From: Curvibacter soli
GTDB lineage: Bacteria > Pseudomonadota > Gammaproteobacteria > Burkholderiales > Burkholderiaceae_C
Assembly: GCF_029211125.1 (NCBI RefSeq)
Contig: NZ_JARGEN010000031.1
Location: forward strand, 62,001 to 126,000
Direction: 5' to 3'
DNA: 64,000 nucleotides
Each line of letters begins with the position of its first letter. The stretch's first letter is position 1. Both the position numbers and the translations under genes were made by a program. Positions 1 to 53,641 of the stretch are shown piece by piece. A model generated the notes under the pieces. The model ran no database searches. It was not told the origin of the DNA and saw nothing but the letters and a program-made list of their open reading frames with translations.

Positions 1-921
1 ACGGCCCTGCGCATTGGCGCGCCGGTGCACGTTGTCCCGCATGGCTCGGACCACGCGGCCGAATTCGTCAAGCTGGGCCGCGCCGTGCCCGGCTGCACGG
101 TACGGATTGCGGATGACACAGGCGCTGAACTGAGCGACCGCACAGTCGGCCACGTTCAGATCCGGGGCGATAACGTGTCCAGGGGCTATTTCGGCGACGA
201 GGCAGCCACCACGGCCTCGCGGTCACCCGGGGGATGGCTCGATACCGGGGATCTGGGGTTGCACATCGATGGACAACTTGTCATCACCGGACGGGCCAAG
301 GACCTGATCATCGTCAACGGGCAAAACTACTACCCCGACGATTTGGAACTGATCGCTCAGCAGGTTCCGGGCATCGAGGCCAACCGCGTAGCCGCGGTCG
401 GGGTGCGCGCCACCGGCGAAGACACTGAATCGGTCGCACTTTTCGTGATCCACCGCGGCGAACTGGCGGATTTCGTACCGAAAGTTCGGGCATTGCGGCG
501 CGCGATCAGCCAGCAAACCGACTTGGAACTAACAGAAGTCGTTCCGGTCATGGCCATCCCGAAGACAACAAGCGGCAAACTTCAGCGGTATGCACTTGCT
601 CATGCTTTCAAAGAAGGCGAGTTCGATACAATACGCACAGAATTGGCTGAATGTCTATCAGCGGACGCCGCAACGCCCCCTGCTGGGGGCGGGCAGAAGT
701 CCACGGCCCTGCGCCTCAAGGAGATCTGCGAGCCTTTGATTCCAGACCAGCAGATCACGGTCCAAACCAACCTGCTGGAAATCAACCTCAAATCGCTCAC
801 CCTGGCGCGTATTCATGAAGCTATCGAGCGCGAATTTCCCCAGCGGATCGAGGTCACCGATCTTTTCGAGTACCCGACGCTGGAGCAATTGGCGAACTTT
901 CTGGACGAAACCCGAGCCTGA
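1..921 (+). CDS. Fatty acyl-AMP ligase fused to a carrier domain (5' end cut by window)
   Basis: The reading frame is open from the first base, so the start and most of the adenylation domain lie outside; 306 residues are visible. They carry late adenylate-forming motifs: GWLDTGDLG, then GRAKDLIIVNGQ followed by YYPDD, then PKTTSGKLQRY, which holds the catalytic lysine. The last 80 residues form an acyl/peptidyl carrier domain; LEINLKSLTLARI has the expected phosphopantetheine serine at about visible residue 265. The enzyme should activate a fatty acid with ATP and load it on its own carrier. It is followed by a second ligase, a free ACP and an alpha-oxoamine synthase on the same strand, suggesting one lipid-like pathway. 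The natural start cannot be judged. Confidence 0.82.
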   Translation, partial: TALRIGAPVHVVPHGSDHAAEFVKLGRAVPGCTVRIADDTGAELSDRTVGHVQIRGDNVSRGYFGDEAATTASRSPGGWLDTGDLGLHIDGQLVITGRAKDLIIVNGQNYYPDDLELIAQQVPGIEANRVAAVGVRATGEDTESVALFVIHRGELADFVPKVRALRRAISQQTDLELTEVVPVMAIPKTTSGKLQRYALAHAFKEGEFDTIRTELAECLSADAATPPAGGGQKSTALRLKEICEPLIPDQQITVQTNLLEINLKSLTLARIHEAIEREFPQRIEVTDLFEYPTLEQLANFLDETRA

Positions 922-1129
922 CTACTGTGCGCAATAATTATGACGGTTTGAAGTGCGCAGGATTTTTCAATCCTGCAGACCTTGAGTTCCTTCCATAGGG
1001 CACGCAGCTAGCGGTTAGCCCGAATCGTACAGTTCCAAGTTTTAGAGTGAAGCAGTGCATGCCCAAAATATTGTGGTCTAGCGTTCTCCTGAGCGTTCAG
1101 GAACACGAAAAGCAGGGGGGTGCACAGTG
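922..1129 (+). promoter_or_regulatory. Intergenic gap with two hairpins before the second acyl-AMP ligase
   Basis: This 200-bp gap is poorer in GC than its neighbours. It holds two clean hairpins: an 8-bp stem with TTTC loop at 957-976 and a 6-bp stem (TCCTGA/TCAGGA, GCGT loop) at 1087-1102. Neither is followed by a T-run on the plus strand, so I do not call a classical terminator. A purine-rich ribosome-binding stretch (AGCAGGGGGG, 1111-1120) precedes the next ATG at 1130. A promoter for the downstream three genes may lie here, but no convincing -35/-10 pair was seen. Confidence 0.4.
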
Positions 1130-2929
1130 ATGGAAGCCACGCTTCTCGGTGCAGTTCCAACGCCGACGATCAGCGGAATTCCGCTGCGCAGTGCCGTCTT
1201 CTCCACCCTCACCGAAGCCCTGGACTACGCCGCCACCGGCGAAAGCGGATTCAACTACTACGACGGGCGCGACAAGCTCTCGGCGGTTTTGCCCTACCGC
1301 GAGTTGCGTCGGCGCGCCCTCGAAATGTCGCGCCGTCTGGCGCCGATCGGTCGCGGCCAGCGGCTAGCCCTGGTCGCGCACACGCATCCCGACTTCGCCG
1401 TGATGTTCTATGCGTGCCAGTACGCCGGGCTTGTGCCCGTGCCACTGCCCGCTGCCGTGCACCTGGGTGGCCGCGACGCCTACGTCCGCCACCTGCGGCA
1501 ACTGATGCGCGACTGTCAGGCGGTGGCCGCCTTCGCCCCGTCCGAATTCATCGGTTTCCTCAACGAAGCGAGCCAGGGCCTGCCACTGACGCTGTCGGGC
1601 ACGTTCGAGGACTTCATGCAGTTGGATGCGCAGGCCGATCTGCCGCCGGCCCCGCTGCCAACCGACCTGGCCTACTTGCAGTACACCTCGGGCAGCACGC
1701 GCTTCCCGCGCGGCACCATGATCACGCAGGCCGCGGTCATGGCCAATCTCAGCGCCATCTTCAACCATGGCTTCACACTCACTGTGAACGACCGCTTCTG
1801 CTCGTGGCTGCCGCATTACCACGACATGGGCCTCGTCGGCATCGTGCTGGGTTGCGTCGCCACGCAGCGCACGGTCGACTACCTGCCAACGCGTGAGTTC
1901 GCGATGCGCCCACGCCTGTGGCTCAAGGTCATCTCGCGCAACCGCTGCACGATCTCCTTCAGCCCGCCCTTCGGCTACACGCTGTGCGCGCGTCGCCTGC
2001 GCCCTGCGGACATCGAATCGCTCGATCTGTCCTCGTGGCGCGTCGCCGGCGTCGGTGCCGAGATGATCCATCCAGGGTCGCTGCAGCAGGTGGCCGAGAT
2101 CCTGGCACCCGCCGGCTTCGACGAGCGTGCCTTCCTGCCCTGCTACGGCATGGCCGAGTGCTCGCTGGCGGTCAGTTTCGCACCCGTGGGAAGCGGCCCG
2201 CACGCCGACATCATCGATATCGACAGGCTGTCGCGCACTGGTGAGGCGCGACCGCCCATCGAGGGTGAAGCCGCCATGAAAGGCAAGGCCTTCATCAATT
2301 GCGGTCGCCCGCTGCCGGGCTTCGAGGTAGAGGTGCGCGGTGATCGGGGCCATGTGCTGCCAGACCGCCGGTGCGGCACGGTGTACCTGCGGAGTGCCAG
2401 CGTGATGTCGGGCTACTTCGGCAACCCCGAGGCCTCACACGAGGTATTGTCGGACGACGGTTGGCTGAACACCGGCGACCTGGGCTACTTTGCGGATGGT
2501 TCCCTGTTCATCACGGGACGCGCCAAGGACTTGATGATCATCAAGGGACGGAACATCTGGCCACAAGATCTTGAGTATCTAGCCGAGCAGCAGCCCGAAG
2601 TGCGCCCGACCGACGCCTCGGCCTTCACGATCACGGACGCGAACGAGAGCGAAACCGCAGTGCTCGTTGTGCAAGTCCGGGAAACCGACCCGGTCAAGCT
2701 CGCATCCCTATCGGTGCGCCTGAAGCAATCGATCCACGCCGAATTCGGCATCCATTGCCTGATCGAACTGGTGCCGCCGCACACCTTGCCGCGCACGTCG
2801 TCGGGCAAGCTGTCGCGCAGCATGGCGCGCAGTGACTTCCTGAAGCGCTGCGGCGAGGAGCAGCAGTTCGGCTTCGGCAAGGACGACGCGTGCATTTCGC
2901 CCCCAACGCCAGTGTCGACCGCGACGTGA
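1130..2929 (+). CDS. Fatty acyl-AMP ligase / AMP-dependent synthetase
   Basis: A complete 599-residue adenylate-forming enzyme. Visible motifs are LQYTSGSTRFPRGTMIT (phosphate-binding loop), DGWLNTGDLGYF, GRAKDLMIIKGRNIWPQDLE and PRTSSGKLSRS near the C-terminus with the catalytic lysine. Length and motif wording fit the fatty acyl-AMP ligase branch, which passes acyl-adenylates to a carrier protein rather than to CoA; that branch call is by resemblance. ATG 1130 is preferred over the overlapping GTG 1127 because of its spacing from AGCAGGGGGG. It probably loads the small ACP encoded 27 bp downstream. It is a second, separate ligase from the carrier-fused one upstream, so the cluster may use two different acyl chains. 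Confidence 0.88.
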   Translation: MEATLLGAVPTPTISGIPLRSAVFSTLTEALDYAATGESGFNYYDGRDKLSAVLPYRELRRRALEMSRRLAPIGRGQRLALVAHTHPDFAVMFYACQYAGLVPVPLPAAVHLGGRDAYVRHLRQLMRDCQAVAAFAPSEFIGFLNEASQGLPLTLSGTFEDFMQLDAQADLPPAPLPTDLAYLQYTSGSTRFPRGTMITQAAVMANLSAIFNHGFTLTVNDRFCSWLPHYHDMGLVGIVLGCVATQRTVDYLPTREFAMRPRLWLKVISRNRCTISFSPPFGYTLCARRLRPADIESLDLSSWRVAGVGAEMIHPGSLQQVAEILAPAGFDERAFLPCYGMAECSLAVSFAPVGSGPHADIIDIDRLSRTGEARPPIEGEAAMKGKAFINCGRPLPGFEVEVRGDRGHVLPDRRCGTVYLRSASVMSGYFGNPEASHEVLSDDGWLNTGDLGYFADGSLFITGRAKDLMIIKGRNIWPQDLEYLAEQQPEVRPTDASAFTITDANESETAVLVVQVRETDPVKLASLSVRLKQSIHAEFGIHCLIELVPPHTLPRTSSGKLSRSMARSDFLKRCGEEQQFGFGKDDACISPPTPVSTAT

Positions 2930-2956
2930 CCCTGACGACCCCTGACTGAGTGCACC

Positions 2957-3217
2957 GTGACTGAATTGAATCTGGTAACTATCGAGCATGCCATCCGGGA
3001 CGCGCTCCATGCGATCCGCCCCGGCAACGCAGACCTGGGCGGCGACGCCGACCTGATGCAGGAAGCCGACCTCGACTCGATCGGCGTGATGGACCTCGTG
3101 ATGGAGATCGAAGACCGTCTCGATCTGTCAATCCCGGTCGAGACGCTAGCCCAAACCCGCACGATCAACGGGCTCCGCGCTGGCATTAGTCAACTGAGCG
3201 GCGGTGGTGCAGCGTGA
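2957..3217 (+). CDS. Acyl carrier protein
   Basis: An 86-residue acidic protein with the carrier motif LDSIGVMDL; Ser41 should take the phosphopantetheine arm. Start is GTG 2957. The stop overlaps the GTG start of the next gene (GTGA at 3214-3217), so the two are probably translationally coupled and their proteins probably partners. A dedicated ACP beside an alpha-oxoamine synthase is the arrangement known for bacterial serine palmitoyltransferase loci such as that of Caulobacter, where the ACP delivers the acyl chain. Here the adjacent acyl-AMP ligase is the likely loading enzyme. Confidence 0.87.
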   Translation: MTELNLVTIEHAIRDALHAIRPGNADLGGDADLMQEADLDSIGVMDLVMEIEDRLDLSIPVETLAQTRTINGLRAGISQLSGGGAA

Positions 3218-4395
3218 GTCTTCTCGACAAATTCGGCACCCAGCGCCAGTTGCAGGAGAGTCTGGCCGAAATGGGTGGGGTGGCACCGATCGCGACGCCG
3301 ATGGATGCGATCCATTCAGCCACCTCCGCCACCATAGGCGGACGTCGCATGATCCTCGCGGGAACCAACAACTACCTCGGCCTGACCTACGACGCGGCCT
3401 GCCGCGCAGCCGCCATCGAGGCCATCGAAACACAGGGCACCGGCTCCACCGGCTCGCGCATGGCCAGCGGCAACTACGCCGGTCACCGGGCGCTCGAACG
3501 TGCGCTGGCCGATGCCGTCGGCTGGCCGTCCTGCATCGTCTTCTCCACCGGCTACCAAACCAACCTCGGCGTGATCTCCGCGCTGGCCGACACCGGTGAC
3601 TACCTGCTGGTCGACGCCGACAGCCACGCCAGCATCCACGACGGCTGCCGGCTGAGCAACGCCACCACCATCCGCTTCCGGCACAACGATCCGGAAAACC
3701 TCGACCGCCGCCTCGCGCGCATGGGTGACGATGCGCACCGCGCCCTGATCGTTGTCGAGGGCGTTTACAGCACGCTCGGCGACCGTGCGCCGCTGAAGGA
3801 AATTACCGAGATCAAGCGCCGCTACGGCGCTTGGCTGCTGGTTGACGAAGCGCACTCTTTCGGCGTCTTCGGCCCGCGCGGCCTCGGACTGTCCGAGGAA
3901 CTGGGCGTGCTAGATGACGTGGACTTCATCGTCGGCACCTTCTCCAAAAGCCTGGGCGGCGTCGGCGGCTTCTGCATCGGTCGGCATGCAGAACTAGAGT
4001 TCCTGCGCATGGTGAGCCGCCCATACATCTTCACGGCGTCATCGTCGCCGCCGTCGATCGCGGCGACGCGCGAAGCGCTGCGCCAGATGCTCGACGGCCA
4101 TGCGTTGCGCGAACGCCTGCGCCGGCACGCCGAGCGCCTCTATGCCGAAGCGGCGCAGTTGGGCTACCGGCTGGGCACCGCGACGCCCGGCCCGGTGGCG
4201 GCCTTGGTCTTCAGCGAGCGCTCTGGCGCGCAGGCACTGTGGCAGTCGTTGCTGGACAACGGCATCTACACCAACCTGATGATTCCGCCCGCCACGCCCG
4301 CCGGACTGAGCCTGGTGCGCATCAGCCTCAGCGCCGCGCACAGCGAAGACGACATCGGGCACATCATCGCGGCGCTCGCTAGTGCTCGATGTTAA
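3214..4395 (+). CDS. Alpha-oxoamine synthase, serine palmitoyltransferase-like
   Basis: A 393-residue PLP enzyme that condenses an amino acid with an acyl thioester, releasing CO2. The PLP lysine is in GTFSKSLGGVGGF (Lys245); other fold marks are GTGSTGSRMASGNYAGH, DADSHASIHDGC, VVEGVYSTLGD and LLVDEAHSFG. From memory of the family, wording such as FSTGYQTNLG, DADSHASI and RPYIFTAS is closer to bacterial serine palmitoyltransferases than to BioF, and no other biotin genes are nearby. The translation-coupled ACP supports an acyl-ACP donor. Product could be a 3-keto long-chain base or another aminoketone; CqsA-like signal synthesis is an alternative. It is the last gene of the cluster. Confidence 0.82.
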   Translation: MSLLDKFGTQRQLQESLAEMGGVAPIATPMDAIHSATSATIGGRRMILAGTNNYLGLTYDAACRAAAIEAIETQGTGSTGSRMASGNYAGHRALERALADAVGWPSCIVFSTGYQTNLGVISALADTGDYLLVDADSHASIHDGCRLSNATTIRFRHNDPENLDRRLARMGDDAHRALIVVEGVYSTLGDRAPLKEITEIKRRYGAWLLVDEAHSFGVFGPRGLGLSEELGVLDDVDFIVGTFSKSLGGVGGFCIGRHAELEFLRMVSRPYIFTASSSPPSIAATREALRQMLDGHALRERLRRHAERLYAEAAQLGYRLGTATPGPVAALVFSERSGAQALWQSLLDNGIYTNLMIPPATPAGLSLVRISLSAAHSEDDIGHIIAALASARC

Positions 4396-42928: not shown

Positions 42929-43234
42929 TCAGCGCAGCAGCACAGGGCCGTACTTGAGCTTCTTGCAGTCTTTGCCCGTTGCTTCCTTGATGAAGCGCTT
43001 GTCCTGCGGCGTGATCCAGCGCATGTTCTCCTTTTTGTCCTGTCCGCCGGCACAAAGCTCGACGACGTAGCCCACCTGCCAGCCGGGGCAGGCCCCTTCG
43101 GTCCGGCCCGTGGACGGGCAGGGATGGTTCAGGCGAAAGGCGCGCTGCTCGGCGCGGTCGCGGTGCTTGCTGCGCGCGTCGGCCGGCCCCGGCAGGGCGG
43201 CGAACAAAAGGCAGAGAAGCAGGGTCTTGTTCAT
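42929..43234 (-). CDS. Small secreted HNH-nuclease-like protein with altered active site
   Basis: A 101-residue protein with a signal peptide (MNKTLLLCLLFAALPGPADA). The mature part HPCPSTGRTEGACPGWQV, then VELCAGGQDKKENMRWIT, aligns by eye with small HNH endonucleases whose consensus is CPGxxVDHxxxLxxGGxDxxxNMQW. In place of the catalytic Asp-His pair (VDH) this protein has VGY; the first histidine is therefore missing, though GG, Asn and the four-cysteine frame remain. It is probably a non-catalytic derivative, perhaps binding DNA or serving another periplasmic role. Confidence 0.72.
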   Translation of the reverse strand: MNKTLLLCLLFAALPGPADARSKHRDRAEQRAFRLNHPCPSTGRTEGACPGWQVGYVVELCAGGQDKKENMRWITPQDKRFIKEATGKDCKKLKYGPVLLR

Positions 43235-43349
43235 GCGCAAAGAGCCGCAGCCATCGGGCCGCAGTGCTCTATTATGCTGTCGGCCTCCACCCTCACTCAC
43301 CGAGAGCCATGCTGCGCCGCTCGTGGACTTTCCCCCTTGCCTCTCCTCA

Positions 43350-44336
43350 ATGCCTGTGCCTCCCCTGACTTCTGGAGCGACCGCCGCGCGTGTGCCCCTG
43401 GTCGCCGTGACCGGGGCGACGGGCTTCATCGGACGGCATCTCATTGCCGCGCTGACGCAGGCGGGCTGGCGGGTGCGGCTGCTGTTGCGGCGCGAGCCGT
43501 CGGGCTCCGGATGGCGCCAGTCGAAGCCCGAGGTCGTGGCCGGCGCGCTCGACAACAGCGCCGCACTGGCACGCTTGGTGGAGGGCGTGGATGCGGTGAT
43601 CCATCTGGCCGGACTCATCAAGGCGGCGCGACGGGCGGACTTCTTCGCGGTCAACGAGCAAGGCGTTGCGCGGATCGCGCAGGCAACCAGGCGACTGTCC
43701 CCTGACGCGCATTTCCTGCAGGTGTCCAGCCTGGTGGCGCGCGAACCCTTGCTCTCGGACTACGCCGCCAGCAAGCGCGCCGGCGAGGCGGCCGCGCTCG
43801 ACGCCATGGGCACACGCACCACCGTGCTGCGCCCGCCCGCGGTCTACGGCCCTGGCGACCGCGAGACGCTGCGCTTCTTCCAGGTGGCCCGCTGGCCGTG
43901 CGTGCCTTTGCTCGGCGGGCCAGACGCGCGCGCGGCGTTGATCCACGTGCGCGATGTAGTGCGGCTGATCGTCACGCTCGTTGCGGCGACACCGCGGGGC
44001 CAGGTGATGGCGGCGGCCGACGGCCAGCCGCAGGGCTACCGCTGGAGCGAACTGCTCGGCGCTGCAGCGCGTGCCGTCGGCAATCCCTCGCCGCGCTTCA
44101 TCGAGGCGCCGCAGAGCCTGCTGCGTGGCGTTGCGCTGCTGGGCGATCTGGCGCGCCTCGGTGGCTCGGCCAGCATGCTCAATTCGCAGAAGCTGCGTGA
44201 GCTGCGCCATGCCGACTGGGGTGTCGCGTCTGACGAACTCGCGCAGCCGGACGGTTGGTCGCCGCAGTTCGACATCGACACCGGCTTTGTCGATGCGGTT
44301 GCCTGGTACCGCTCGGCCGGCTGGCTACCAGGCTGA
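43350..44336 (+). CDS. NAD-dependent epimerase/dehydratase (extended SDR)
   Basis: A 328-residue extended short-chain dehydrogenase. NAD(P) site VTGATGFIGRHLIAALTQAG, VDAVIHLAG, and the YxxxK pair in DYAASKRAGEAAALDAMG; LRPPAVYGPGDRETLRFF is typical of nucleotide-sugar epimerase relatives. Substrate unknown. ATG 43350 precedes the conserved part; there is no strong ribosome-binding site. The following ELM1-like gene begins 17 bp after its stop. The neighbourhood of glycosyltransferase-like genes suggests a surface glycan role. Confidence 0.85.
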   Translation: MPVPPLTSGATAARVPLVAVTGATGFIGRHLIAALTQAGWRVRLLLRREPSGSGWRQSKPEVVAGALDNSAALARLVEGVDAVIHLAGLIKAARRADFFAVNEQGVARIAQATRRLSPDAHFLQVSSLVAREPLLSDYAASKRAGEAAALDAMGTRTTVLRPPAVYGPGDRETLRFFQVARWPCVPLLGGPDARAALIHVRDVVRLIVTLVAATPRGQVMAAADGQPQGYRWSELLGAAARAVGNPSPRFIEAPQSLLRGVALLGDLARLGGSASMLNSQKLRELRHADWGVASDELAQPDGWSPQFDIDTGFVDAVAWYRSAGWLPG

Positions 44337-44352
44337 TGCGCCGGCGAGTGAC

Positions 44353-45438
44353 ATGGCCCGGGTGACGCCTTGCGGTGCCGACGCGGCACCGGTCTGGGTA
44401 TTGCTGGGGGCGCGCCACGGCGACAACCAGCAGTTGCTGGCCATCGCCGATGCCTTGGGCGTGCCGTACCGTACCGTACCCTTGCGTTTTCGTGTCGCTG
44501 CCGGCTTGCCGCCGATCCTGCTGGGCGCTTCGCGCCTGAGCTGGCGCAGCAAGGACACGGCAGCGCTGCAGCCGCCCTGGCCGCGCGTGGTGTTGGCGGC
44601 GGGACGCAGGAGCGTGCCGGCAGCGCGATGGATTCGGCGCCAATCCGGCGAGCGTACGCGACTGGTCCACGTCAATCGACCGTGGGCGCCGCTGTCGTGG
44701 TTCGACCTGATCGTCACCACGCCGCAGTACGCCCTGCCGGAGCAGGCCAACGTGTTGATGCACCGCCTGCCGTTCATGCAGCCGCAGCAGCCCATCGACG
44801 TACCGCTTCCGCTGGCGTTGCAGCCGTATGCGGCGCGCATGCCGCGGCCCTGGACCCTCGTGATGGTCGGCGGCAACAGTCGCCCCTTCGTATTCGACAA
44901 AGAGGCTGCGGTCGGGCTTGCGCACCTCGTGAATGCGCAGGTGCGAACACATGGCGGCAGCGCCTGGGTGCTTGGCAGTCCGCGGACGCCGGCTACCGCG
45001 ATGGAAGTACTGGCCGGGTCGCTCGACGTGCCATCGCATGTCGTCCGCTGGGGTGAGGGCGAGAACCCCTACGCGGCCCTGCGCCAGCGCGCGCAGCGGA
45101 TCATCGTCACGACGGACAGCGCGTCGATGCTGACCGAAGCGTTGCTCACCGGTCGTCCGGTCGTGCCCTTCGCGTTGCCACGGCAGCCGGATTGGCGCTG
45201 GAGCTTGGCGACGGCCTGGCGCGTCGCTGCGACACGGCGACCGACGTCGATGGTCGCGCGCAGCTTCGATATCCTGCAGGGCCTCGGACTGCTGTCGTCT
45301 CTGCGCGATCTGGCGCTGCTGCACCGTGCGTTGGAGGCGGCTGGCGCGTTCGACGGCAGCGGGCGTGTACTCGACATGGCACGGCAGGAGCGCGAAATCA
45401 CGCTGGCGCGCATCCATGCGCTGATCGCGCGCTACTGA
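44353..45438 (+). CDS. ELM1/mitochondrial-fission-like GT-B fold protein
   Basis: A 361-residue protein of the family named after plant ELM1 but common in proteobacteria. Recognisable parts are VWVLLGARHGDNQQLLAIAD, LVGG-type VMVGGNSRPFVFDKEA and VTTDSASMLTEALLTGRPVV; the last resembles the nucleotide-sugar-binding end of GT-B glycosyltransferases. Function in bacteria is unproven; it usually neighbours lipopolysaccharide genes. ATG 44353 is chosen to begin the conserved part; ATG 44336 is out of this frame's need. Confidence 0.75.
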   Translation: MARVTPCGADAAPVWVLLGARHGDNQQLLAIADALGVPYRTVPLRFRVAAGLPPILLGASRLSWRSKDTAALQPPWPRVVLAAGRRSVPAARWIRRQSGERTRLVHVNRPWAPLSWFDLIVTTPQYALPEQANVLMHRLPFMQPQQPIDVPLPLALQPYAARMPRPWTLVMVGGNSRPFVFDKEAAVGLAHLVNAQVRTHGGSAWVLGSPRTPATAMEVLAGSLDVPSHVVRWGEGENPYAALRQRAQRIIVTTDSASMLTEALLTGRPVVPFALPRQPDWRWSLATAWRVAATRRPTSMVARSFDILQGLGLLSSLRDLALLHRALEAAGAFDGSGRVLDMARQEREITLARIHALIARY

Positions 45439-45457
45439 GCCGTCGGAGGGCGTGCCC

Positions 45458-46342
45458 TCAGGCCGCGATGTGCGCGGCGCGGGCCACGCAGTCCATCGCG
45501 TCGGCACGCACGTGGCCGTGCGCGATCTCGGCGTCGAGCAGGGCACGGTCGATCGAGCCGTTGTCCAGGCATTCGCCCAGCAGTCGGAAGAACAGTCGCT
45601 CCTGGGCCGGGTCTGGATGCCTGCGGTAGCGACCCGCGCCGCGCCCCGTCAGCTTGCGCAGCCAGATGCCAGCGCGCGACTTGAGCGTGGTGCCGCGCGG
45701 CGTGAAGTCCGAGGACAGACCGGTTTTCCACGGTTGCGTGCGGCGGTGCGTGTTGTGCAGCAGCTTGGTGTCGGGTGCAAGACGGTCGAAGTCATTCCAC
45801 TCGGACTCGAGCGCCGCGACGCTGCCCGGCGGTTCGAGCAGCAGCCACATCCAGTCGCGGTAGTCGCGTTCGCCGCGGAAAACGCGCTCGAAGTCCACTT
45901 CCCACTGCCAGTGCCGCAGACGCGCGCAGTCCATCAGCATCACGCTCGACGCGTAGTGCAGCGGGCGGCGGAAGTTGCCATCCATTTGCCGTGCCATCAA
46001 GGCGGCGCCACCCATGTCGCGCTCGAGCAGTATGTTGATGTCTGCGAGCGCGAAGATGTCCGGGTCGATCAGCACCGCGCGGCCGGTGTAACCCATCTGT
46101 TGCGGCACGGCGAAGCGCAGCGGCGTGAATGACTGCAGGTCGTCGTTGCGCCAGACTACCTGCTGGCCCTCGCGCAGATAGCGGCGCCCCTCGAAGCGCT
46201 CGAAGACCGGGAAGTCCGTCGTCTGGAGGATGTGCACGTCGAAGCGTTCGGGCGCGGCGCTGTGGCGACGCAATGCGTGCTGCGCCACCAGGGCGCCGAC
46301 GATCTGCTTGGGGTTGGTGTGGATGAAGACGGCGTTGCGCAT
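45458..46342 (-). CDS. GT-A-fold glycosyltransferase-like protein
   Basis: A 294-residue soluble protein. The N-terminus (VFIHTNPKQIVGALVAQHAL) and the segment GRAVLIDPDIFALADI resemble GT8-type glycosyltransferases; DPD is the putative metal-binding DxD motif, and LLHNTHRRTQPWKTGL fits the C-terminal GT8 LLH..TQPW pattern. No signal peptide or membrane helix. Sugar donor and acceptor unknown. It converges on the ELM1-like gene with a 19-bp gap, so it belongs to another transcript in the same glycan neighbourhood. Confidence 0.62.
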   Translation of the reverse strand: MRNAVFIHTNPKQIVGALVAQHALRRHSAAPERFDVHILQTTDFPVFERFEGRRYLREGQQVVWRNDDLQSFTPLRFAVPQQMGYTGRAVLIDPDIFALADINILLERDMGGAALMARQMDGNFRRPLHYASSVMLMDCARLRHWQWEVDFERVFRGERDYRDWMWLLLEPPGSVAALESEWNDFDRLAPDTKLLHNTHRRTQPWKTGLSSDFTPRGTTLKSRAGIWLRKLTGRGAGRYRRHPDPAQERLFFRLLGECLDNGSIDRALLDAEIAHGHVRADAMDCVARAAHIAA

Positions 46343-46621
46343 GCCGCATTTTCACCTCTCCGCCGGCTCGGGCATCCCGCTGCGGGCTCGGACCAATGCT
46401 TTTTTTCGGCCATCTCGGTGCTGCCGTGCACCTTGTAGCGCTGATCGCTTCTCCGCAAACGCCGGGAACCGCCAGGGCCTTGGGATGAGCTCTCCAGTGT
46501 CGGCAGTCGCGGTACACTGCCACCATATGAAATTTATGCGCATGCCCTGTGGCGAACTCTTCAAGCAGGTGATGCGAGATGCAGACGAAGTCCGCAGCGG
46601 TGTTGCGCCGGAGGGTTCGGT
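46343..46621 (+). promoter_or_regulatory. Divergent gap between glycosyltransferase-like genes, with a possible leader ORF
   Basis: 279 bp separate two divergent starts. GC falls noticeably from about 46490 onward. A 35-codon frame at 46527-46634 (MKFMRMPCGELFKQVMRDAD...) has its stop overlapping the start of the next gene and could be a coupled leader; nothing else supports it. GTACACT/CATATG-like boxes near 46510-46530 hint at a promoter but none is convincing. Confidence 0.35.
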
Positions 46622-47455
46622 GTGCATGTGCTGATCACCGGCAAGGGCTCTAGTGGTAGCTGGCAAATCCGTGGAGTTCAACTAGGGCAGACGCTGGGGG
46701 CTTCAATAGTCCCGAATGCCAAGGACGTGGCGCCCTACGACTTGGCAGTCCTCGTGAAGCGGCAGACCACCGATCTGCTGCGAAGCCTGCATCGTTGCGA
46801 GGTGCCGGTGATCTGGGATGTGGTCGACGCCTGGCCACAGCCAGTCGGAAATGCGTGGCAGAAAAAGCAGTGCTTAGAGTGGCTGGCCAATGAAGTGAGG
46901 ACGATTCGGCCTGCCGGGATTGTCGCAGCGACGCGCGTGATGGCTCAGGACTGCGAGGGCTTTGGCGTGCCCGTGCTAACGCTACCGCATCACGCCCGTC
47001 CGGGCCTGCGGCCGAATCCAATCCGGCCGCTGAAAGTGCTGGGTTACGAAGGAGGAGAGAAGTATCTGGGACGCTGGCTGCCGATTGTCAAGCGGCAATG
47101 CGCGGCTCGCGGATTGCAGTTCGTCATCAATCCGGCGGAGGTGGCCGACGTGGACATTCTGGTTGCGTTGCGGGACTGCCCTGGCTACGCCCCAAGGAAC
47201 TGGAAGAGCAACGTCAAGCTGGCTAACGCGCAAGGCAGCGGGACGCCGGTGATTTGTAACCGCGAGGCGGGGTATCTGGAGACGGCATGCGGCGTCGAAC
47301 AGTGGGCCGACGACGAGGCCGAACTCGCTGCGGCGCTGGATGCACTGGAGTCTGTCGAAGTGCGGCGCCGAACGGGGCAAGTCTTACGCGCCTCGACCCT
47401 GAATATCGATAGCGTCGCGGCTATTTACCTGGAGTGGCTACGGTCGAAATTCTGA
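46622..47455 (+). CDS. Glycosyltransferase-like protein of lower GC
   Basis: A 277-residue protein starting at GTG 46622 with GGAGGG six bases upstream. MHVLITGKGSSGSWQIRGVQ suggests an N-terminal Rossmann half, and NAQGSGTPVICNREAGYLE followed by VEQWADDEAELAAAL resembles the donor-binding half of GT4-type glycosyltransferases. The middle is unlike families I know. Codon use includes many A/T-ending codons (for example TTACGC, ATTTAC, TTAGAG), unlike its neighbours, which suggests recent transfer. Probably surface-glycan related. Confidence 0.6.
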   Translation: MHVLITGKGSSGSWQIRGVQLGQTLGASIVPNAKDVAPYDLAVLVKRQTTDLLRSLHRCEVPVIWDVVDAWPQPVGNAWQKKQCLEWLANEVRTIRPAGIVAATRVMAQDCEGFGVPVLTLPHHARPGLRPNPIRPLKVLGYEGGEKYLGRWLPIVKRQCAARGLQFVINPAEVADVDILVALRDCPGYAPRNWKSNVKLANAQGSGTPVICNREAGYLETACGVEQWADDEAELAAALDALESVEVRRRTGQVLRASTLNIDSVAAIYLEWLRSKF

Positions 47456-47692
47456 TTTTCTGATCCCCGGCGGCGACCCAAACTGCTCCACCTGCCCGGG
47501 GTGAGTTGGCCCATTGAGAACGGCGAGTCAGGCGCCTCAGCCCTGACGATCCGAAGGCGGGCGTTCTCTGCCCGCAAGCGGGTTAGACGTGAATCGAAAC
47601 CTTGCGCATGCCACGGCCCATCACAGGATGCGGCGCCTCTGGCGGCGAAATGCAATCCGGCTTGCAGGCCACCGCCTTGACCGGCGGCGCGG
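47456..47692. other. Gap before dcd, nothing recognised
   Basis: 237 bp with no gene. It contains a small CCCGC-AAGC-GGG hairpin near 47570-47585 that could stop readthrough from the glycosyltransferase-like gene, but there is no T-run. The segment around 47500-47560 reads like old coding sequence, yet no family was recognised. Confidence 0.4.
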
Positions 47693-50572: not shown

Positions 50573-53500
50573 ATGGTGCAACTCTCCAGACGCCAGTTCA
50601 TGAAAGTGACTGGCACCACGCTGGCAGGCTCCAGCCTGGCGCTGATGGGCTTCTCGCCCGCCACCGCGCTGGCTGAAGTCCGCCAGTACAAGCTCGCGCA
50701 GACCACCGTCACGCGGCAGACCTGCACGTACTGCTCGGTCGGCTGCGGCATCCTCATGTATGCGCTAGGCGACGGCGCCATGAACGCCAAGCCGTCGGTG
50801 ATCCACGTCGAGGGCGACCCCGACCACCCGGTCAACCGCGGCACGCTCTGCCCCAAGGGGGCGAGCCTGCTGGACATCATCAACAGCCCGAACCGTCTGC
50901 TCCACCCCGAGTACCGCGCGCCAGGCTCCAGCGAGTGGAAGCGCATGTCATGGGACGATGCGCTGAACCGCATCGCAAAACTGATGAAGGCCGACCGCGA
51001 CGCCAACTTCGTCGAGAAGACGGCCGACGGCCTGACGGTCAACCGCTGGCTCACCACCGGCATGCTGGCGGCCTCGGCCTCCAGCAACGAGGCCGGCTAC
51101 ATCACGCACAAGATCGCCCGCTCCTGGGGCCTGCTCGCATTCGACAACCAAGCCCGTGTCTGACACGGCCCGACGGTGGCAGGTCTTGCCCCGACGTTTG
51201 GCCGTGGAGCGATGACGAACCATTGGGTCGACATCAAGAATGCGGATGTCATTCTGGTCATGGGCGGCAATGCCGCCGAGGCGCACCCCTGCGGCTTCAA
51301 GTGGGTGACCGAAGCGAAGGCGCACAACAAGGCGTACTTCATGGTGGTCGATCCGCGCTTCAACCGCTCGGCATCGGTGGCGGATTTCTACGCCCCCCTC
51401 CGGTCGGGGTCGGACGTCGCTTTCCTGGGCGGGGTCATCAACTACCTGCTGTCCAACGACAAGGTGCACCACGAGTACGTGAAGAACTACACCGACTTCT
51501 CGTTCATCGTGCGCAGCGATTTCGACTTCGTCGACGGCATCTTCTCGGGCTACAACGCCGAGAAGCGCACCTACGACAAGGCGAGCTGGGACTACGAACT
51601 GGGCGCCGACGGTTTCGTGAAGACCGACCCGACGCTGCAGGACCCGCGCTGCGTGTACCAGTTGATGAAGGCGCACTATGCCCGCTACACGCCTGAGAAG
51701 GTCGAGAGCATCTGCGGCACGCCCAAGGACAAGTTCCTGCACATCTGCGAGAAGATCGCCAGCACGGCCGTGCCTGGCCGTGCCATGACCATCATGTACG
51801 CGCTGGGCTGGACGCAGCACTCCATCGGCGCGCAGATCCTGCGCACCGGCGCCATGGTGCAGTTGCTGCTGGGCAACATCGGCGTGGCCGGCGGCGGCAT
51901 GAACGCGCTGCGCGGCCACTCCAACATCCAGGGCCTCACCGATCTGGGGTTGCTGTCGGCCAGCCTGCCGGGCTACATGACGCTGCCCTCGCAGGCCGAG
52001 CAAGACTACGGAAAGTACATCGAAGCCCGCACGCAGAAACCGCTGCGCCCGGGCCAGATGAGCTACTGGCAGAACTACCCGAAGTTCCACGTCAGCCTCA
52101 TGAAGGCATGGTATGGACCGGCGGCGACCGCCGACAACAACTGGGCCTACGACTACCTGCCCAAGCTCGACAAGCAGTACGACATGCTGCAGATTTTCGA
52201 GCTGATGAACCAGGGCAAGGTCAACGGCTACATCGCGCAGGGCTTCAACCCGCTGGCAGCGCTCGCCGACAAGGACCGCGTGCGCGCGGGGCTGTCCAAG
52301 CTCAAGTTCCTGGTCATCATGGACCCGCTGGCCACCGAGACGTCCGAGTTCTGGAAGAACTACGGCGAGCACAACGACGTGGACCCGGGCCAGATCCAGA
52401 CCGAGGTGTTCCGCCTGCCCACCACCTGCTTCGCCGAGGAGGAGGGCTCGGTGGTGAGTTCGTCGCGCGTACTGCAATGGCACTGGAAAGCCGCCGAACC
52501 GCCGGGCGAGGCCGAGACGGACATCCGCATCATGTCCGAGCTGTTCCTGCGCATCAAGGCGCTCTACGCCAAGGAAGGCGGCAGGTATCCCGACCCCATC
52601 ATCAACCTCTGGTGGCCCTACAACAACCCGCACGGGCCCACGCCGACGGAGGTGGCCAAGGAGTACAACGGCCGCGCCCTGGTCGACCTAGCCGATCCGA
52701 AGGACGCCACCAAGATCACCCGCAAGGCGGGCGAGCAACTCGCGGGCTTCGGCGAGCTGCGCGATGACGGCAGCACGGTCTGCGGCTGCTGGATCTTCTC
52801 CGGCGCCTGGACCCAGGCCGGCAACCAGATGGCGCGGCGCGACAACGCCGACCCCACGGGCATCGGCAACACGCTGAACTGGGCCTGGGCCTGGCCGGCC
52901 AACCGCCGGGTGCTCTACAACCGCGCCTCGTGCGACGTGAGCGGCAAGCCGTTCAACCCGCAACGCAAGCTGGTCGCCTGGAACGGCAGCGCCTGGGGCG
53001 GCGCCGACGTGGCCGACTTCGGCGCCGCCCTGGCGCCCGAGAGCGGTGCCGGCCCGTTCATCATGAACCCCGAGGGCGTGGCCCGCTTCTTCGCTCGCAA
53101 GAACATGGCCGAGGGGCCGTTCCCCGAGCACTACGAACCGTTCGACACCCCGCTGGGCTACAACCCCATGCACCCGAAGAACGCCAAGGCCACCAGCAGC
53201 CCGGCCGCGCGCGTGTTCCCGGGCATCTGGGAGACCTTCGGCAAGGCCGCCGAATTCCCGCACGTGGGCACGACCTATCGCCTGACCGAGCACTTCCACT
53301 ACTGGACCAAGCACGCGCTGCTCAACGCCATCATCCAGCCCGAGCAGTTCGTCGAGATCGGCGAGGCGCTGGCCAAGGAGGTCGGCGTCGCCTCGGGCGA
53401 GTGGGTGAAGGTCAGCTCCAAGCGCGGCTACATCAAGGCCGTGGCGCTGGTCACCAAGCGCATCAAGCCGATGCGGATCGAGGGCAAGACCGTGCATCAC

Positions 53501-53641
53501 GTGGGCGTGCCGATCCACTGGGGCTTCAAGGGCGTGACCAAGCCCGGCTTCCTGGCCAACACGCTGACGCCGTTCGTCGGCGACGGCAACACCAACACGC
53601 CTGAATTCAAGACCTTCCTGGTCAAGGTGGAAAAAGTATGA
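50573..53641 (+). CDS. fdnG: Formate dehydrogenase-N/O alpha subunit, selenocysteine-containing
   Basis: 1022 residues if the in-frame TGA at 51161 is read as selenocysteine (Sec197); the frame is otherwise unbroken from ATG 50573 to 53641. A Tat signal (SRRQFMKVTG) marks periplasmic export. TYCSVGCGILMYA binds a [4Fe-4S] cluster. The Sec context is NQARV-Sec-HGPTVAGLAPTFGRGA, as in E. coli FdnG/FdoG (Sec196), where Sec ligates molybdenum of the bis-MGD cofactor. It oxidises formate to CO2 and passes electrons to FdnH. Downstream fdnHI, fdhE, selA and selB complete the system. AAAGG precedes the ATG. Confidence 0.96.
51161..51204 (+). promoter_or_regulatory. SECIS element with the UGA selenocysteine codon
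   Basis: Directly after TGA (51161-51163) the RNA can fold: CGGCC 51166-51170 pairs GGCCG 51200-51204; ACG 51173-51175 pairs CGU 51195-51197; GGCA 51178-51181 pairs UGCC 51187-51190, leaving the apical loop GGUCU 51182-51186. The GGUCU-type loop and its distance from UGA match the E. coli fdhF/fdnG minihelix recognised by SelB. The same bases are also coding. Confidence 0.92.

Follow-up and report, generated by a model that had tools for sequence, protein, structure and literature searches.

A cytochrome P450 and carrier-fused acyl-AMP ligase cassette beside the serine palmitoyltransferase operon of a putative sphingolipid gene island in Curvibacter soli

Introduction

Sphingolipids are a class of fats better known from animals and plants; among bacteria they are known from few groups, and their role in the outer membrane and the chemistry of their head groups are open questions. 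We analyzed a stretch of 64,000 nucleotides of the Curvibacter soli genome (contig NZ_JARGEN010000031.1, positions 62,001 to 126,000), here called the window (G000:C25:62001-126000, where G, C and L stand for our numbering of genomes, contigs and loci), which opens with genes for two acyl-AMP ligases, an acyl carrier protein (ACP) and a serine palmitoyltransferase (SPT). The genome comprises 3.36 Mb in 99 contigs and is 99.8% complete.

The closest described system is the AasR-AcpR-SPT set of Rhodobacteria, represented by CC_1165/1163/1162 in Caulobacter crescentus and by ECD_02851/02853/02854 in Escherichia coli BL21 (PMC9386255). In C. crescentus the region CC_1168-CC_1152 comprises 17 genes, of which five are assigned to ceramide, six to phosphosphingolipid head groups and four to transport, including second versions of LptF and LptG, while two are thought to be unrelated (PMC11324152). 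SPT and ceramide synthase (CerS) are cytoplasmic in Caulobacter, and CerR is periplasmic (PMC11087976). Since such genes are also reported in Nitrosomonas eutropha, a betaproteobacterium (PMC11324152), betaproteobacterial sphingolipid genes as such are not new.

Results

The acyl-AMP ligases, carriers and synthase of the window

An earlier note on the window had described two acyl-AMP ligases, one of them carrier-fused, a free ACP and an alpha-oxoamine synthase. All of these are present, in the order it gave:

1..921, + strand: C-terminal part of FAAL1-ACP1, a fatty acyl-AMP ligase (FAAL) fused to an acyl/peptidyl carrier domain (PF00501, PF00550)
1127..2929, + strand: FAAL2, a free-standing acyl-ACP synthetase of the AasR kind (NF006624, 754 bits, cut-off 600; exact start codon not settled)
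2957..3217, + strand: ACP2, an AcpR-type specialised acyl carrier protein (PF00550; directly upstream of spt)
3214..4395, + strand: SPT, serine palmitoyltransferase (NF047599, 574 bits; tree; best solved chain 2x8u_A)

As the note had supposed, the left part of the cluster lies outside the window. The FAAL1-ACP1 gene starts there, 1053 bases away, at G000:C25:60948 (L004 6948), and the cassette goes on with genes for a cytochrome P450, a phosphopantetheinyl transferase (PPTase) and two nucleotidyltransferases. The whole FAAL1-ACP1 protein of 657 residues matches PF00501 (189 bits) and PF00550, and with NF006624 it scores 378 bits, under the cut-off of 600. The nearest solved chain to FAAL2 is 3pbk_A (533 bits), and the FAAL2 copy of plasmid pDCB2 (see below) matches the ligase encoded at the spt locus of E. 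coli BL21 with 534 bits. ACP2 shares an aligned serine motif with the AcpR proteins of E. coli BL21 and other SPT loci. In line with the proposed coupling of the synthase to the ACP, the reading frames overlap by four bases (GTGA), the SPT start codon GTG lying at 3214 and the ACP2 stop codon TGA at 3215-3217. AcpR thus lies directly upstream of SPT with AasR nearby, the arrangement by which an AasR-AcpR-SPT operon is recognised; an ACP directly upstream of spt occurs in published operons as well (PMC9386255).

The locus resembles the Rhodobacterial system in having a FAAL, a specialised ACP and an SPT in a row, with the SPT gene abutting or overlapping the ACP gene and the SPTs clustering together. 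It differs in the place of cerR: of the 80 SPT loci from named genomes that we compared (the best 80 of 583 encoding stretches), 65 have this gene between aasR and acpR. This canonical order is not found in the window's locus, whose SPT clade has 13 further members (L044-L055 and pDCB2) in which cerR is likewise missing from that place. A further difference is that the P450 and FAAL1-ACP1 genes precede aasR.

Identity of the synthase

Judged by its sequence, the synthase encoded at 3214-4395 is a serine palmitoyltransferase, as the earlier note had read it, and is predicted to condense serine with a long-chain acyl thioester. It exceeded the cut-off of the SPT model NF047599 (574.1 bits, cut-off 500) and did not reach those of bioF (TIGR00858, 333.8 bits, cut-off 426.45), glycine C-acetyltransferase/Kbl (NF005394, 279.8 bits, cut-off 460; TIGR01822, 235.9 bits, cut-off 493) or the CqsA-type autoinducer synthase (NF005526, 213.1 bits, cut-off 428). 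Among solved chains it is best matched by bacterial SPTs (2x8u_A, 391 bits). A quick maximum-likelihood tree of 73 rows, computed without bootstrap and with a long-branch warning among the non-SPT synthases, divided 42 SPTs from 31 other synthases, which included E. coli BioF and Kbl, with a Shimodaira-Hasegawa-like approximate likelihood ratio (SH-aLRT) support of 100. The window's SPT falls on the SPT side together with that of E. coli BL21, a biochemically tested enzyme (PMC9386255). It sits on a short branch, is 92% identical to the pDCB2 copy, and has its nearest named relatives in Comamonadaceae. An identity as BioF, Kbl or CqsA was ruled out by the scores and the tree.

That the synthase would be BioF or Kbl after all, serving biotin or threonine metabolism, is hardly credible. 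The genome does hold BioB, and the SPT is its one BioF-like protein at a useful score; but profile scores and tree disagree with this explanation, the synthase gene overlaps that of AcpR, and no biotin genes were found in the window or in the 40 kb preceding it. With E. coli BioA, BioB, BioC, BioD, BioF and Kbl as queries, the SPT was the sole match in that range, the contig's 4.3 kb right of the window being unsearched; adjacent biotin or threonine genes were thus not found in the range covered. A query with E. coli Tdh matched a zinc alcohol dehydrogenase at 38.8-39.8 kb with 29% identity. Among phage records, the SPT search returned 19 records, all below 60% identity, of which the five listed were BioF, Kbl or unannotated.

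As a separate observation, BioB is encoded at G000:C28:5948-6859 (L124), the SPT is the genome's sole alpha-oxoamine synthase at a useful score, and E. coli BioA, BioC, BioD and BioF match nothing further in the stretches fetched. When 35 other genomes of the family were searched with the SPT model, 12 likewise yielded only matches of E 1e-6 or weaker, or none. The organism may build biotin from a scavenged precursor.

The P450-FAAL1-ACP1 cassette at SPT loci

FAAL1-ACP1, the P450 and the divergent PPTase form a separate cassette that is new relative to the known core. The order P450 - FAAL1/ACP1 - FAAL2 - ACP2 - SPT was found in 8 of the 80 named SPT loci (L044-L047, L050-L053), and a divergent PPTase lies left of the cassette in seven of these, the eighth (L045) beginning inside the P450. 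With pDCB2 and the window's genome, the cassette-bearing islands number ten. Their hosts are Variovorax, Rhizobacter, other Burkholderiales, Panacagrimonas (Nevskiaceae) and one unplaced Pseudomonadota bacterium. All cassette loci belong to one SPT clade (support 100), which also contains L048, L049, L054 and L055. The sequences of L048 and L049 stop at or within FAAL2, so that the presence of the cassette cannot be assessed in them. L054 and L055 have neither the cassette nor CerR between aasR and acpR, and because their place in the SPT tree is unsettled, either a gain or a loss of the cassette would fit there. P450 or FAAL1 was not seen in the other 70 named loci, several of which are short contigs. 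An SPT above the cut-off was encoded by 16 of the 399 genomes of the order, the window's own included.

Compared with pDCB2, dN/dS was 0.09-0.17 for P450, FAAL1-ACP1, FAAL2, ACP2 and SPT (0.10 for the P450 and 0.17 for FAAL1-ACP1) and 0.24 for the PPTase. The recurrent order, together with these low values, indicates that the gene set is not a chance arrangement. The I-helix, ExxR and FxxGxRxCxG patterns, signature motifs of P450s, are kept in all ten island copies, and the carrier serine of ACP1 is conserved in 10 of 10 aligned loci. An AlphaFold model of the P450, built from 7 sequences, had a mean predicted local distance difference test (pLDDT) score of 51. These data agree with the proposal that two ligases and two carriers serve either two acyl chains or a single chain that is further modified, and they allow it to be sharpened, the fused ligase-ACP belonging to the P450 cassette. 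A literature search that scarcely covered subscription journals found, judging by titles and the openings of abstracts, no papers on a locus combining SPT, P450 and FAAL.

Cassette copies without SPT

At E <= 1e-90, homologues of the P450 were found in 4 of the 399 genomes of the order, and at E <= 1e-80 in 20 of the 369 genomes of the class, the window's own being included each time. The three other genomes of the order (44-47% identity) and 19 of the class make 22 further genomes, at 41-51% identity. The P450 lies directly upstream of a FAAL1-type FAAL-ACP in 21 of these 22 loci; the remaining locus is a 3.5-kb contig ending with the P450. The I-helix pattern is present in 21 of the 22 P450s, the exception being L223, and a PPTase was recognisable in 12 loci. 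No SPT and no match to a CerS-like protein was found within the fetched stretches of 3.5-16 kb, the class genomes not having been searched whole; the three genomes of the order are not among the 16 SPT-positive ones, negatives being listed only in part.

A gene of a late-acyltransferase family stands beside the cassette or one gene off in 21 of the 22 loci, DUF374/LpxJ-like in 16 and LpxL-like in 5. Pfam confirmed this for eight DUF374 proteins of seven loci and for the LpxL-like proteins of L194-L196. DUF374 proteins are LpxJ secondary acyltransferases, which add secondary chains to lipid A (PMC6148475). The cassette resembles the lipid A late acyltransferase systems (LpxJ/LpxL) in pairing an ACP-bound chain with such an enzyme, encoded next to it or one gene away; it would differ in loading by a fused FAAL and in P450 oxidation, and the acceptor in the island would be a sphingolipid. 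The AcpXL/LpxXL pair of rhizobia may be a parallel for an ACP working with a late acyltransferase. In the P450 and FAAL1 trees, a branch with support 100 sets the SPT-island copies apart from the rest, a pattern compatible with a single capture of the cassette but not proving it.

Two of these loci (L230 10552-15637, L231 10507-15592) have genes beside the cassette for a protein of 1192 residues and for a phosphatase of the PP2C type, the latter recognised by Pfam in L230.

Candidate genes for the remaining ceramide pathway

Candidates for the remaining genes of the ceramide pathway are present in the genome, though scattered. The earlier note had proposed to look leftwards for a CerR-like epimerase and a ceramide synthase. 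Both were found, in other places: CerR rightwards, inside the window, and CerS on contig C89.

43350..44336, + strand: CerR-like NAD-dependent epimerase/dehydrogenase, candidate ceramide/ketosphinganine reductase (PF01370; CerR homology)

This protein is the genome's only match to CerR of SPT locus L008 (38%). With it as query, matches turned up in all but one (G068) of 12 other SPT genomes, ten at 61-87% and one (G071) at only 32%. CerS is a homologue of E. coli BL21 YghO encoded at C89:13272-14381 (43% identity), YghO being the N-acyltransferase gene termed aca (PMC9386255). A YghO homologue was found in 13 of the 14 SPT genomes searched, the exception being G069. CerR and CerS homologues therefore occur in the same genome, as in the bacterial five-gene ceramide pathway, and together with the SPT identity they support the earlier reading as sphingoid-base synthesis.

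A FemAB-like protein (PF04339) was dropped as candidate for the ceramide synthase, since a direct search revealed YghO homologues and YghO of E. coli BL21 matches no Pfam family; in the SPT genome G050, a YghO homologue is present and the PF04339 match is merely sub-threshold. Such a protein is encoded at G000:C28:25658-26794 (L125 7658-8794; 464 bits), and one above the cut-off occurs in 13 of the 14 SPT genomes searched.

The island in three places and on plasmid pDCB2

The P450 query also led to pDCB2, a plasmid of the soil bacterium Diaphorobacter sp. JS3051 (IncP, relaxase MOBP, MPF_T), which MOB-suite typed as conjugative. It carries the island as one contiguous stretch of about 27 kb. 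The order begins with an LpxL-like acyltransferase, an ABC transporter, a diacylglycerol (DAG)-kinase-family protein, a fatty acid desaturase, a DUF3108 protein and a protein without a family, and continues with a CDP-alcohol transferase, a metallophosphoesterase (MPE), a HIT protein, two LptF/LptG permeases, a second CDP-alcohol transferase (CDPOH2) and CerS. Two nucleotidyltransferases (NTPt1, NTPt2), PPTase, P450, FAAL1-ACP1, FAAL2, ACP2 and SPT follow, and then two unknown proteins, an ELM1-type glycosyltransferase, CerR, a small unknown protein and a Tn3-family transposase. All of these genes except the transposase have counterparts in the window's genome at 76-97% identity. Here they occupy three places: the beginning of the window together with the part of contig C25 preceding it, window positions 42938-47461, and C89:440-14390. 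In addition to CerR, the second place holds:

42938..43234, - strand: hyp5, small island protein (79% identity to the pDCB2 protein; no Pfam match)
44362..45438, + strand: putative glycosyltransferase of the ELM1/GtrOC1 type (PF06258; 85% identity to the pDCB2 gene)
45458..46342, - strand: hyp4, island protein (92% identity to the pDCB2 protein; no Pfam match)
46622..47461, + strand: hyp3, island protein (83% identity to the pDCB2 protein; no Pfam match)

The median third-position GC content in the window region was 0.83 for 12 island genes and 0.92 for 30 other window genes, hand-picked among coding-like frames (Mann-Whitney p 1e-6). The lower value of the island genes is in line with acquired DNA.

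The island resembles the CPG/CPG2 region of C. crescentus in its DAG-kinase-family kinase, phosphoesterase, second LptF/LptG pair, CerS and two nucleotidyltransferases, and in their parallel order, a likeness that rests on families and gene order rather than on a comparison with the Caulobacter sequences. In pDCB2, the order MPE-HIT-LptFG-LptFG-CDPOH2-CerS-NTPt1-NTPt2 parallels CC_1158 to CC_1152 (PMC11324152), from which it departs by the extra CDPOH2 and the reversed NTPt2; the family of CC_1157 was not seen. The kinase, the CDP-alcohol transferases, the two nucleotidyltransferases and LptFG were recognised by family and order; the CDP-DAG-synthase-like CC_1161 was not identified among them. 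Unlike the Caulobacter region, the island adds a second CDP-alcohol transferase, the LpxL-like acyltransferase, the desaturase, the PPTase, the ELM1-type glycosyltransferase and the P450 cassette.

Plasmid pPNP1 of Pseudomonas sp. JS425 (L175 12057-16194) carries a distinct sphingolipid cluster in canonical order, consisting of FAAL, epimerase, ACP, SPT, ABC transporter and LptF/LptG, with IS5 and Tn3 elements nearby and an SPT that is 54% identical. Plasmid-borne SPT genes are therefore not peculiar to the pDCB2 island. In E. coli BL21 (L126 4921-7067), lptG and lptF are annotated directly beside spt, much as LptF/LptG are linked to the island.

Discussion

On balance, we favor the view that the genome encodes a phosphosphingolipid island of the Caulobacter/E. 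coli BL21 kind joined by an acyl-oxidation cassette whose oxidised extra chain would most probably be O-linked by the LpxL/PatA-like enzyme. By homology to tested enzymes, AasR (1127-2929) would load a fatty acid onto AcpR (2957-3217), and SPT (3214-4395) would condense the acyl chain with serine to 3-oxo-sphinganine. The YghO-type CerS (C89) would attach the N-acyl chain, and CerR (43350-44336) would reduce the ketone. The kinase, nucleotidyltransferases and CDP-alcohol transferases (C89 and left of the window) may add the head group, while the ABC transporter and the LptF/LptG-type permeases, in the same two places, may carry the lipid to the outer membrane. In the cassette, the PPTase would arm ACP1, FAAL1 would load a second fatty acid onto its own fused ACP1, and the P450 would oxidise, probably hydroxylate, the bound chain. 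An acyltransferase could then use this chain as donor, and O-acylation by the LpxL/PatA-like enzyme (C89:440-1381) would yield a sphingolipid with an extra oxidised chain. The gene families, their order and conservation, and the independent cassettes beside late acyltransferases are observed; all reactions of the cassette, its substrate, the oxidation site and the acceptor are inferred. We rank the O-linked chain first because the cassette elsewhere mostly adjoins late O-acyltransferase genes, and an LpxL/PatA-like enzyme is encoded in the island.

Several observations weigh against this assignment. The LpxL-like enzyme is encoded here on another contig, not beside the cassette, and since it also occurs in the cassette-less SPT locus L054 (with weaker matches in L061, L092 and L097), it need not be the partner of the cassette. 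PF03279 is matched by the pDCB2 copy, and both copies have HMGNAA in place of HX4(D/E), a motif that would fit a PatA-like site but may also point to a changed activity. The solved-structure matches of the P450 are mixed (CYP97-, CYP4-, CYP3A-, CYP46- and BM3-type chains), so that chain oxidation is deduced mainly from the adjacent fused ligase-carrier; terpene-type NCBIfam models match it below their cut-offs, and 2 of the 20 P450s of the class contain one in-frame stop each. Neither a ferredoxin nor a P450 reductase was found among the island genes with a Pfam match, the only genes searched for them. The island encodes a PF00487 desaturase, which could equally act as chain hydroxylase, a function proposed for CC_0202 in Caulobacter (PMC11324152). 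The acyltransferase link was compared with 87 control loci (1.55 Mb) holding no DUF374 and four LpxL-like proteins, all in SPT loci; 84 of these 87 are themselves SPT loci and not random genome. The hidden Markov model (HMM) for DUF374 was built from the eight proteins of seven cassette loci, which match by construction, leaving nine other DUF374 loci as independent; that for LpxL was built from L194, L195, L196 and pDCB2, leaving L227 and L233.

The O-linked chain nevertheless appears most likely, and its main rival is an N-linked chain, in which oxidised acyl-ACP1 would be the donor for CerS, the lipid would have two chains and the cassette would fix which hydroxylated acid is amide-linked. 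This is a plausible but unlikely arrangement. Two ligase-carrier pairs match the two chains of ceramide, CerS adjoins NTPt1 close to PPTase and P450 in L044, L046, L047, L050, L052 and pDCB2, and N-acyl hydroxylation is reported to matter for polymyxin-type sensitivity in Caulobacter (PMC11324152). Of the 22 cassettes without SPT in view, however, 21 neighbor a late O-acyltransferase family, with no CerS-like match at these loci, and the YghO homologues of the SPT genomes include those of G050, which lacks such a P450, and of the L054 and L055 genomes, which have no cassette beside SPT; CerS thus seems to function without the cassette.

Another route, which we regard as improbable, would hand the oxidised ACP1-bound chain to SPT and give a hydroxylated or otherwise oxidised long-chain base. 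All ten cassette islands do have P450-FAAL1/ACP1-AasR-AcpR-SPT in one direction, yet the SPT gene overlaps that of an AcpR of its own, acyl-AcpR is the preferred donor of tested SPTs (PMC9386255), and SPTs with and without the cassette (L054, L055) share one clade. It is also quite unlikely that the cassette is unrelated to sphingolipids, modifying lipid A or another envelope lipid and merely co-residing in a mobile island. The 21 LpxJ- or LpxL-type neighbors among the 22 loci without SPT in view would agree with such a role, as would the closely related island on a plasmid typed as conjugative. On the other hand, the cassette lies directly upstream of aasR-acpR-spt in 8 of the 10 loci L044-L053 (the other two being cut off), in pDCB2 and in the window's genome, and the island's only recognised late acyltransferase sits among sphingolipid genes.

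While the core AasR-AcpR-SPT/ceramide set is of an already known kind, the P450-cassette island seems, within the literature searched, to be an undescribed form of it. On plasmid pDCB2, typed as conjugative, a single island comprises the full set, from synthesis through to export, so that one transfer could confer sphingolipid synthesis. More speculatively, and with some doubt, P450 - FAAL-ACP - (PPTase) - late acyltransferase might be an undescribed, widespread cassette for tailoring envelope lipids, placing oxidised secondary chains on the lipid A of many Gammaproteobacteria and, following a single capture event, on phosphosphingolipid in Burkholderiales and Panacagrimonas. In that case the product would be a three-chain, lipid-A-like sphingolipid, with its complete pathway carried on an IncP plasmid typed as conjugative. 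The P450-FAAL-ACP cassette is a testable lead to this tailoring chemistry, its link with LpxJ/LpxL-type enzymes predicting that either sphingolipid or lipid A bears an additional, oxidised chain.

Other features of the window

A selenocysteine insertion element (SECIS_3) was detected at window positions 51158-51216 on the + strand (85 bits, gathering threshold 63), beside or within the open frame 51176-53641, which suggests that a selenoprotein is read through a nearby in-frame UGA in this region.

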